A stretch of 41,812 nt of DNA from Luteolibacter sp. (GTDB taxonomy: Bacteria > Verrucomicrobiota > Verrucomicrobiia > Verrucomicrobiales > Akkermansiaceae), in the NCBI GenBank assembly GCA_021298895.1, contig JAJTHK010000040.1, forward strand, positions 1 through 41,812, in the 5' to 3' direction. Below the pieces are notes generated by a model, which worked only from the letters and a program-made list of their open reading frames with translations, had not been told where the DNA came from and made no database searches. Below are positions 17,872 to 32,526 of this stretch, piece by piece (the first letter of the stretch is position 1; every line of letters begins with the position of its first letter). Position numbers and translations under genes: made by a program.

Positions 17872-17975
17872 CAAATCAACAATCAAAAATCGTCAATCAT
17901 CAATCGGAAATCAATTCGTGAAAGGCACGATTTGGCATTCCGATTTGATTGGCGATTGACGATTGATAATTTTTG
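17872..17975. repeat. Heptad-periodic long hairpin between convergent genes
   Basis: AATC at 17874, 17881, 17888, 17895, 17902, 17909 (exact 7-bp spacing); arms 17884-17918 and 17941-17975 complementary at 29/35 without gaps. Confidence 0.7.
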
Positions 17976-18009
17976 AATGAAGAGAAAGGGACAGGATTGT
18001 CCCTTCTCC

Positions 18010-18957
18010 TTATTTCTTAACGTCCCAACGGAGGATACGGCCCCATTTGTTCCACTCGGTGGTGACGACGTTGCCGTCTTTGTCGAAAGTGACGCCGTGA
18101 GGTGATGTGGTGATACCTTCGCGCCATGCTTCAGGATTGACGTTGTTGGTGTTGAATTCTTTCGGGTTGTCGTTAGGGCCTAATACTTTGAGGACTTTGC
18201 CTTCTTTATCGAGGATGGTGACGCCGCTGGCGAGTTGGGCGACGGCGACGAGATCGCCATGGAAATCAACGGTGCAAGGTTTCGGAACTTTTTCAGCATA
18301 TACGCCGATGAATGTGCCATCGAGATTGAGGTGAATGAGGCGGTCGTTGGTGCGATCGCAAACGAGAACGCGGACAGGGTCGAAGCGATAGTCGAAGGCG
18401 AATTTATGAGCAGTTTTCAAATTGTATGGCTCGGCTTTGCCTGCGGTGGTGGATTTGAATTTTCCTTCTTTGTCGAAGATGAGGATGCGATCGGATGCGT
18501 AGCCATCGATTAGCCAGATGTCGCCGTTCGGTGCGCGGTCGGCGTGAGTGAGGGCAAATTTTTTGCCTACTTCTTCGGGAATTGCGGTCATCGGGATTTC
18601 CATAAGAATTTCACCTTCTGTGGAAAGTTTGAGGAAAGCGGATTTTTCATCTTTTAAGCAAGCGGCGTAGATGATGTCTTTGCCGTCTTCTTGGACCATG
18701 GTAAAACCGTGGTGGTTGTTGCGGGCGTTTGGGAGGTTGCGGAGGTATTTGCCTTCGTGTGAGTAAACTTGAATGCCGCTTTTTTCTCCACCGACGATGG
18801 ATACGTAAAAATTGCCTTTTGAATCAACATCGATTTCACCGTGTGAATCGCCGACGTGGGCGAGTCCTTCTGGAGCTTTCAGCCAGTCTTTGTGGTGTTC
18901 GAATTCGTGGGCGGTGGCAGCGGTTATCAGTGCGGCGAGCAGTAGGATTGGTTTCAT
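18010..18957 (-). CDS. Secreted NHL-repeat/beta-propeller protein
   Basis: Signal peptide MKPILLLAALITAATA; repeated DxxGNFYV, DKEGK..., HGVTFDKDGNVVTTEWNKWGRILRW blades. Confidence 0.75.
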   Translation of the reverse strand: MKPILLLAALITAATAHEFEHHKDWLKAPEGLAHVGDSHGEIDVDSKGNFYVSIVGGEKSGIQVYSHEGKYLRNLPNARNNHHGFTMVQEDGKDIIYAACLKDEKSAFLKLSTEGEILMEIPMTAIPEEVGKKFALTHADRAPNGDIWLIDGYASDRILIFDKEGKFKSTTAGKAEPYNLKTAHKFAFDYRFDPVRVLVCDRTNDRLIHLNLDGTFIGVYAEKVPKPCTVDFHGDLVAVAQLASGVTILDKEGKVLKVLGPNDNPKEFNTNNVNPEAWREGITTSPHGVTFDKDGNVVTTEWNKWGRILRWDVKK

Positions 18958-18969
18958 GTTTTTAAAAAA

Positions 18970-19126
18970 GTTCTTGGTTCTTAGTTTTTGGTTCGTGGTT
19001 CGTGGTTCGTTGTTCGTTGTTCTTAGTTCTTAGTTCTTAGTTCTTAGTTCTTAGTTCTTAGTTCTTAGTTCTTAGTTCAAATTTGAAATTTGAAATTTGA
19101 AATTTGAAATTTGAAATTTGAAATTT
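18970..19126. repeat. Phase-locked heptanucleotide array, GTTCKTN units switching to TTTGAAA units
   Basis: About 16 GTTC-type units from 18970 (GTTCTTG, GTTCTTA, GTTCGTG, GTTCGTT, then GTTCTTA run) followed in the same 7-bp phase by six TTTGAAA units from 19082. Confidence 0.95.
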
Positions 19127-19550
19127 AAGCGCAGCGTGGGCAGGTGCCGAAGAATTCGAGTTCATGATACAGGCCTTGGTAGCCAGTTTTTTCGCGAATT
19201 TCATTTTCGAGATTATGAACTGGGCAAGGGGCTTGAATTGCTTCGATTTTGCCGCAGCCCGTGCAGATCAGGTAATCGCTGTGTTTTCCGGGTTGGAGTA
19301 GGGTAAAATAGGCGGCGCGTTCGTGGAGGCCGAGTCGACGGATAATGGCGTGTTCGGTGAGGCGCTGGAGCAAACGATAAACTGTGGCTTTATCGCAAAG
19401 GCCAGTAAGGCGCTTTGATGTGGAGAGTTCGGCGAGGGTCATGGGGCGGGGATTCTCCATGAGGGTTAAAATCAATTCCTCCAATGCCTTTGTTCGGCGC
19501 AGGCCGAGGTCTCGGCAGCGCGCGATGACTTGTTTGAGAGGGGTTTCCAT
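19125..19550 (-). CDS. Fur family transcriptional regulator
   Basis: LRRTKALEELILTLMENPRPMTLAELS...DKATVYRLLQRLTEHAIIRRLGLHERAAYFTL...HSDYLICTGCGKIEAI...GTCPRCA. Confidence 0.9.
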   Translation of the reverse strand: METPLKQVIARCRDLGLRRTKALEELILTLMENPRPMTLAELSTSKRLTGLCDKATVYRLLQRLTEHAIIRRLGLHERAAYFTLLQPGKHSDYLICTGCGKIEAIQAPCPVHNLENEIREKTGYQGLYHELEFFGTCPRCA

Positions 19551-24483: not shown

Positions 24484-24607
24484 TTTAGGGTAAAACTGAA
24501 AAGCTGAAAGCAGGATGAGCGTTAGCGAATTGTTACAGAATGCAAAGCCAAATGGCTTGGACGGAGTGAAACGCAGTCAAATAGAGAAGGAGAGCTTTAA
24601 TTAGAGA

Positions 24608-26479: not shown

Positions 26480-26507
26480 CAAATCACAAATCACAAATCT
26501 CAAATTT
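26480..26507. repeat. Short heptad array (CAAATYN units)
   Basis: AAAT at 26481, 26488, 26495, 26502 (exact 7-bp spacing): CAAATCA CAAATCA CAAATCT CAAATTT. Confidence 0.7.
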
Positions 26508-32433: not shown

Positions 32434-32526
32434 AAATATCAAGTTTCAAATCTCAAATTTCAATGAAGAGTATGAAGATGAAGTATTTGGAAGATGCTTA
32501 TGATTGAATTGAAATTTGAAATTTTA
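32434..32526. repeat. Inverted pair of heptad arrays
   Basis: AAATATC AAGTTTC AAATCTC AAATTTC (32434-32461) and GAAATTT GAAATTT (32511-32524); arms 32447-32464/32508-32525 complementary at 16/18. Confidence 0.7.

Follow-up and report, generated by a model that had tools for sequence, protein, structure and literature searches.

Introduction

How can a tandem repeat change its motif partway along while its period stays at 7 bp? The question is raised by an intergenic array in the window, as we call the whole 41,812-nucleotide stretch of DNA analysed here, in which one heptanucleotide gives way to another between a Fur-family regulator gene and a gene for an NHL-repeat protein. It touches on a broader one, as the reason for the preference for 7 bp has been a standing question since genome surveys noticed it; the contact length of the polymerase has been proposed to explain why long simple repeats in bacteria favour 7-bp units (cited in PMC4692102 and PMC4679880). 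The clade of the window's genome offers a natural test, in that sister species share intergenic sites that range from single degenerate heptads to 22-unit arrays and include a small insert that apparently entered arrays after their formation. Here, we consider it likely that the array is one locus in a family of period-7 intergenic repeats of a small Akkermansiaceae clade and that it arose by local expansion in 7-bp steps.

A two-motif array between fur and the NHL-repeat protein gene

The array fills the 167-bp gap between the two genes, which are co-directional on the minus strand, with the fur stop codon in contact with the array and RuvB beyond the gene pair (Table 1). Direct reading from 18970 gives 22 units, namely 15 of the type GTTCNTN, one hybrid GTTCAAA and six TTTGAAA. 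On the plus strand, their order is GTTCTTG, GTTCTTA, GTTTTTG, GTTCGTG x2, GTTCGTT x2 and GTTCTTA x8, followed by the hybrid (19075), TTTGAAA x6 from 19082 and a final TTT. The 157-bp heptanucleotide array that had been described from the letters alone is thus real and composed of the units as read: its lag-7 identity is 0.92, compared with only 0.17-0.40 at lags that are not multiples of 7, and the top lag-7 score in the gap is 112, whereas 500 dinucleotide-preserving shuffles reach at most 15. TRF calls it as 15.7 copies (18969-19078) and 6.9 copies (19079-19126). The units lie head to tail at exactly 7 bp, as in heptanucleotide simple sequence repeats; their exact copy number rests on the assembly of the window's genome (G000), a 2.76-Mb freshwater MAG in 190 contigs, whose nearest named relatives, judged by Fur, are Akkermansiaceae MAGs.

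Table 1. Positions of heptad repeats, the dispersed core and the adjoining genes in the window
Feature	Position	Strand	Evidence
Inverted pair of degenerate heptads (CAAATCAACAATCAAAAATCGTCAATCATC ... GATTGGCGATTGACGATTGATAATTTTTGA), in the gap beyond the NHL gene	17872..17976	.	
Gene for the NHL-repeat protein (315 aa, PF01436), located downstream of the array	18010..18957	-	
Block B, GTTCNTN x15 (reverse strand CTAAGAA / CCAAGAA / CCACGAA type)	18970..19074	-	direct reading, TRF, lag-7 identity
GTTCAAA hybrid unit where the motif changes, forming the palindrome TTCAAATTTGAA with the next unit	19075..19081	-	
Block A, six TTTGAAA + TTT (reverse strand AAATTTC), against the fur stop codon	19082..19126	-	direct reading, TRF
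Gene for the Fur-family regulator (PF01475), located upstream of the array	19125..19550	-	
Dispersed ~72-bp core, one copy, between AA dinucleotides and away from the array	24509..24578	+	nhmmer E 1.3e-11
Short CAAATCA/T heptamer array	26480..26505	.	
AAATTTC-type heptad inverted pair	32448..32524	.	

Period 7 across the genome and the clade

The array is not an isolated case. In 50 kb of intergenic DNA sampled without selection from the same MAG there are 13 period-7 arrays, compared with about none in shuffles, and the corresponding counts at other lags are 0 at 5, 6 and 10-12, 4 at 8 and 3 at 9. In about 574 kb of G000, a tally that takes in the window and two array-bearing contigs, there are 24 lag-7 arrays, 20 of them mainly intergenic, and non-harmonic lags from 5 to 16 give 0-4. 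Autocorrelation at lag 7 over intergenic DNA, the check proposed with the first description of the array, likewise returned a clear excess over other lags: at lags 7, 14 and 21, the pooled excess in the unselected sample amounts to +1.4%, +1.6% and +0.9% (z 7.1, 7.7 and 4.2). After masking of the strict arrays, the excess at lags 7 and 14 is smaller yet still there. Unit length 7 is therefore over-represented relative to other lengths, mainly in intergenic DNA, as is characteristic of heptanucleotide simple sequence repeats.

The sister genomes G056 (Fur 92%) and G016 (Fur 94%) have the same period-7 habit. Strong heptad expansion is confined to this narrow clade: (GTTCTTR)3 has 83 matches in G000, 25 in G056, 4 in G016 and 2 in one other genome, and none in the remaining 57 genus genomes searched. 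Scattered arrays of the same motif families also occur in more distant relatives, and 78 loci of the wider family show no excess at lags 7, 14 or 21.

Degenerate heptads in the orthologous gaps

The orthologous gaps of the relatives indicate what the site may have looked like before it expanded. In G056, the gap between fur and the NHL gene reads AAATTTC CAATTAA CAATCAA GAACTAA GAACCAC GAACCAA TAAC, with one copy of each heptad, and these single heptads bridge the two gene-strand motifs of the window, AAATTTC and the CTAAGAA/CCAAGAA type. This gap has 28 lag-7 matches compared with a shuffle mean of 13.7 (0 of 5000 shuffles as high), and the G016 gap holds a weaker heptad tract (P 0.003). At 82-84% Fur identity, the loci L009-L013 carry heptads of the AAATTTC (A) type at the same spot after the fur stop and an inverted A-type tract ahead of the NHL start. 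A heptad tract was looked for in the fur–NHL gap of L014, L015, L017 and L300 and is absent there. Read together, these sequences suggest that degenerate heptads held the site first and that the lineage of the window then multiplied two of them.

Expansion in whole units

Change by whole units is documented for a related array. The loci L171 (G016:C41) and L180 (G000:C26), near-identical loci of uncertain host and distinct from the window's own array, match at 99.3% over 757 bp of flank and have a 134-bp block without any difference, yet their left arrays measure 97 bp and 20 bp, a gap of 77 = 11 x 7. Contig C26 may be mis-binned or recently transferred, because elsewhere the two species are much less alike (Fur protein 94%); in either case the comparison is one at strain level, and it reveals for this related array the whole-unit difference between close relatives that is typical of heptanucleotide simple sequence repeats. 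Other arrays of the family contain sub-runs that are one substitution apart, such as GTTCCTG x9 followed by GTTCTTG x5 (L105), or GTTCTTA x6 followed by GTTCTTG x3 (L091), and these fit the prediction of slippage plus mutation. TAACTGA-bearing IMG/VR contigs from elsewhere likewise contain runs of related heptamers; one of them (L284, 3300035698_022356) has 14 arrays of several related heptamer motifs in 13.7 kb. A further two-motif array, AAATCTC x7 then AAGAACT x5, lies at another gene (L172 6557-6641, G016:C48), and its motif order matches that of the window's reverse strand.

Formation of the array could thus be modelled as follows. An old degenerate heptad tract between fur and the NHL gene, as seen in the orthologs, would predate the split of the sister species. 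In the lineage of the window, an AAATTTC-like heptad by the fur stop codon and a GAACTAA/GAACCAA-like heptad ahead of the NHL gene would each have multiplied in 7-bp steps, probably by slipped-strand mispairing during replication or repair, and point mutations copied along with the units would have produced the sub-runs GTTCGTG x2 and GTTCGTT x2. The motif would change and the period would stay at 7 because both expansions begin within a heptad tract that is already there and proceed by whole units, and no protein that reads the spacing would be required. The heptad tracts are probably tolerated rather than essential, although the persistence of degenerate heptads over the long divergence of L009-L013 might mean constraint, and a putative effect of the array on mRNA folding or on the spacing of fur and the NHL gene is possible. 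Slippage alone leaves the preference for 7 over 5, 6 or 8 unexplained. In addition, some of the family spread or was inherited as sequence and was not remade at each site, because the same motif families (AAATTTC, AACCAAG, AATCATC) turn up again at many loci, also in relatives that are more distant.

Inverted pairs and a possible mobile origin

Spread as sequence is central to the strongest alternative, which we regard as a tentative one. It holds that the arrays are arms of small, dispersed, MITE-like inverted-repeat elements that have the heptads built into them and spread by transposition or recombination, with array expansion being secondary and the window array representing an expanded arm whose partner was lost. 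The arms of long intergenic inverted repeats in this genome are indeed heptameric, with a lag-7 identity of 0.489 compared with 0.20-0.33 at lags 3-6 and 8-12, and about 18 of these 49 repeats are clearly so (some overlapping). Like MITEs, the inverted heptad pairs have inverted-repeat ends in many dispersed similar copies; a C-type arm, TTCAAAAATCAACAATCATCAATCGTCAA, occurs at many loci and is near-identical in L048, a relative with 73% Fur identity, and the A-type tracts after fur and before the NHL gene in L009-L013 form such a pair at the very site of the array. However, no whole pair was seen with a clean empty site or a target duplication, many arrays including that of the window have no partner, and unit number varies freely. 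The MITE-like origin is compatible with slippage, and both may hold. A role of the inverted heptad pairs as terminators was considered and rejected, as tandem, convergent and divergent gaps contain them at similar frequency (small numbers).

A small core within the heptad tracts

Many (AACCAAG)n tracts are adjoined by a conserved sequence of about 72 bp with the consensus AGCnGnGTGAGCGTTAGCGAACTTnnAnAnTAAGACGAAGTCCTnACCGCTTGGACGGAGCGAAGCGnAGTC, of which the examined parts of G000 contain 34 distinct copies (e.g., L180 5059-5144, L214 1493-1581). Only two genomes of the genus, G000 (28) and G056 (25), contain the core pattern at high frequency. The flanks of the core are heptad tracts whose family differs by locus (AACCAAG; AATCATC/ATCGTCA; GTGAATA) and is the same on the left and on the right, with a similarity of 10.3 compared with 8.5 +/- 0.24 for permuted partners (0/2000 as high). 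All 38 copies tested have AA to the left of the core and 37 of the 38 have AA to the right. If the core is excised and the AA is counted once, lag-7 identity across the join peaks at 0.477, compared with 0.24-0.38 when the join offset is neither 2 nor its harmonic, 9, and with 0.387 +/- 0.024 for shuffled flank partners, and the lag-14 maximum falls on the same offset. Sister loci include heptad tracts that lack the core (G000 L214 vs G056 L164; G016 L335 vs G000 L091). The simplest reading of these alignments is that a small element would have inserted precisely into pre-existing heptad tracts; alternatively, the core was possibly lost in the other lineage.

The identity of the core was pursued along several lines. 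A search of seven core-bearing loci against Rfam gave no family at the gathering threshold, and classification as a REP element was rejected, as the consensus fold has only 8 pairs and the position of a G[TGCA]AG tag is variable, whereas a REP is a 20-40 bp palindrome tagged by GTAG or CGTC. The single 2.8-Mb genome G000 has 12 matches to Y1_Tnp (IS200/RAYT-type), and the 8 of these genes that were inspected have no core closer than roughly 1.5 kb. The core also occurs head to tail with a period of about 75-80 bp (L217 2253-2489, G000:C79; L168 14479-14634, G056:C30), and in L121 5561-5651 (G000:C155) it sits within an octamer array (GGATTGAG), the period of which again appears undisturbed. 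It is tempting to unite tracts, pairs and core in one heptad-based system, in which a 7-bp reader or copier would keep the paired intergenic tracts of several motifs and direct precise insertion of the 72-bp element at AA within them, arrays and element being one selfish or architectural unit, but we deem this improbable.

Register at the motif change

The constant period could also be imposed from outside, by a protein or DNA structure that reads every 7 bp, with selection holding the spacing while the letters vary. The earlier note had taken two motifs in one phase as a sign of such a spacing rule, as opposed to descent from one ancestral unit, and this does not hold up. The register at the junction, considered as a sign of a rule, proved uninformative because a common register can always be chosen for two period-7 arrays that abut; that the array keeps its phase is true arithmetically and nearly empty. 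At the observed rotation, GTTCTTA mismatches TTTGAAA at 4 positions, a value shared by 4 of the 7 rotations. The single heptads of G056 supply intermediates between the two motifs, and the register of block A relative to block B is shifted by 1 bp between G000 and G056 (counted from the fur stop codon, AAT is in phase 6 and AAC in phase 5 in G000, and both are in phase 6 in G056). The lengths of the two fur–NHL tracts are 111 bp apart, which is 6 modulo 7. A shared 7-position frame, NAAYYNN, appeared striking by eye among 12 distinct motifs and was discarded, as it is no better than in internally shuffled motifs (P = 0.52). Because the A/B register is not conserved and the motifs have no common frame, a strict 7-bp spacing rule is not supported; a weaker constraint may exist.

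Just downstream of fur in L009 and L011, TCAA is constant every 7 bp through four successive heptads and the other three positions differ between the species, which possibly reflects a constraint every 7 bp or else chance in a small sample. Together with the period 7 kept by degenerate tracts in four orthologous gaps, the lag-7 and lag-14 excess that survives masking, and the predicted binding of IHF/HU to repeat sites in Geobacter metallireducens (PMC2700814), this speaks for a 7-bp reader. Set against the missing frame, the shifted register, the uninformative junction and the complete absence of the tract from several relatives, such a reader appears unlikely. Hence, of the two mechanisms that had been offered for the array, slippage fits the data and the protein reading every 7 bp does not find support.

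Two further explanations fare less well. As the array lies between two co-directional genes and such arrays change by whole units, unit number could tune expression of the NHL gene or fur at a putative contingency (phase-variation) locus; similar arrays, however, occur in convergent, divergent and tandem gaps with no clear preference (small numbers), and we judge a contingency locus quite improbable. That short-read assembly created the array is highly implausible, even in a 190-contig assembly in which contigs C26, C69, C82, C93 and C153 end inside arrays, since separately binned sister MAGs contain the same class of array, the window array is spanned on both sides and has several distinct sub-runs, and none of 66 unselected contig ends lies in an array, which also led us to reject assembly breakage as a source of arrays; doubt is limited to the copy number of the window array.

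Comparison with known systems

Repeats like the array are known from other bacteria, and the earlier statement that no equivalent had been described was too strong, as heptanucleotide arrays are published for Xanthomonas, Nostoc, Beggiatoaceae, Microcystis, Bacteroidetes and Geobacter metallireducens. The STRR repeats are those of heterocystous cyanobacteria, whereas the host of the window belongs by its Fur relatives to the Akkermansiaceae. BLAST comparison of the array, and of a repeat of cyanobacterial type, with plasmids gave no match, an outcome that carries no information since BLAST filters out low-complexity sequence. Intergenic arrays of GGGAATC in Xanthomonas and GGGGA(T/C)T in Nostoc comprise up to 26 units and vary in length among related genomes, for which slippage was proposed (PMC4692102). 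They resemble the window's family in their period of 7 and intergenic location, but are G-rich and quadruplex-forming with one main motif, while the arrays described here are AT-richer, belong to several motif families and frequently form inverted pairs. Direct repeats of TAACTGA are found in Beggiatoaceae, Cyanobacteria and Bacteroidetes and are in Microcystis 'often mixed with others'; differences between matching sets in two Cyanothece strains are mostly 7-nt indels (PMC4679880). These repeats are likewise intergenic heptamer arrays, with mixed heptamers in Microcystis, and differ from the window's family in having one dominant motif and in occurring in different taxa.

In Geobacter metallireducens, the accessible part of the published account describes tandem hepta- and octanucleotide sites of classes 1-3, mostly as opposite-strand pairs with variable spacing, and insertion sequences that keep a constant distance to certain class 1 sites (PMC2700814). 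As far as this description goes, dispersed tandem 7-bp units and opposite-strand pairing are shared with the window's family. The comparison is one of descriptions and not of sequences; the Geobacter motifs (MTYCTGA, GTTGCTYN) are from another phylum, and the arrays here are longer than the sites described there, with motifs that succeed each other within a tract and a 72-bp core inside the tract.

Among small mobile elements, the BrickBuilt MITE of Porphyromonas gingivalis (PMC4596501) also combines a tandem array with a small inverted-repeat element in intergenic DNA, but its 23-bp unit is inside the element, whereas the insert described here lies among 7-bp units. REP/RAYT elements (PMC3733652), known in Verrucomicrobia from Opitutus terrae, are comparable as short dispersed intergenic repeats, and Y1 transposase genes are present here; the core, however, is weakly folded and without a fixed GTAG/CGTC tag, and none is near the inspected Y1 genes. 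The array thus belongs to a known kind of repeat, of which its family is a new form through the combination of pairing, the succession of motifs and the core that sits in register within the tracts.
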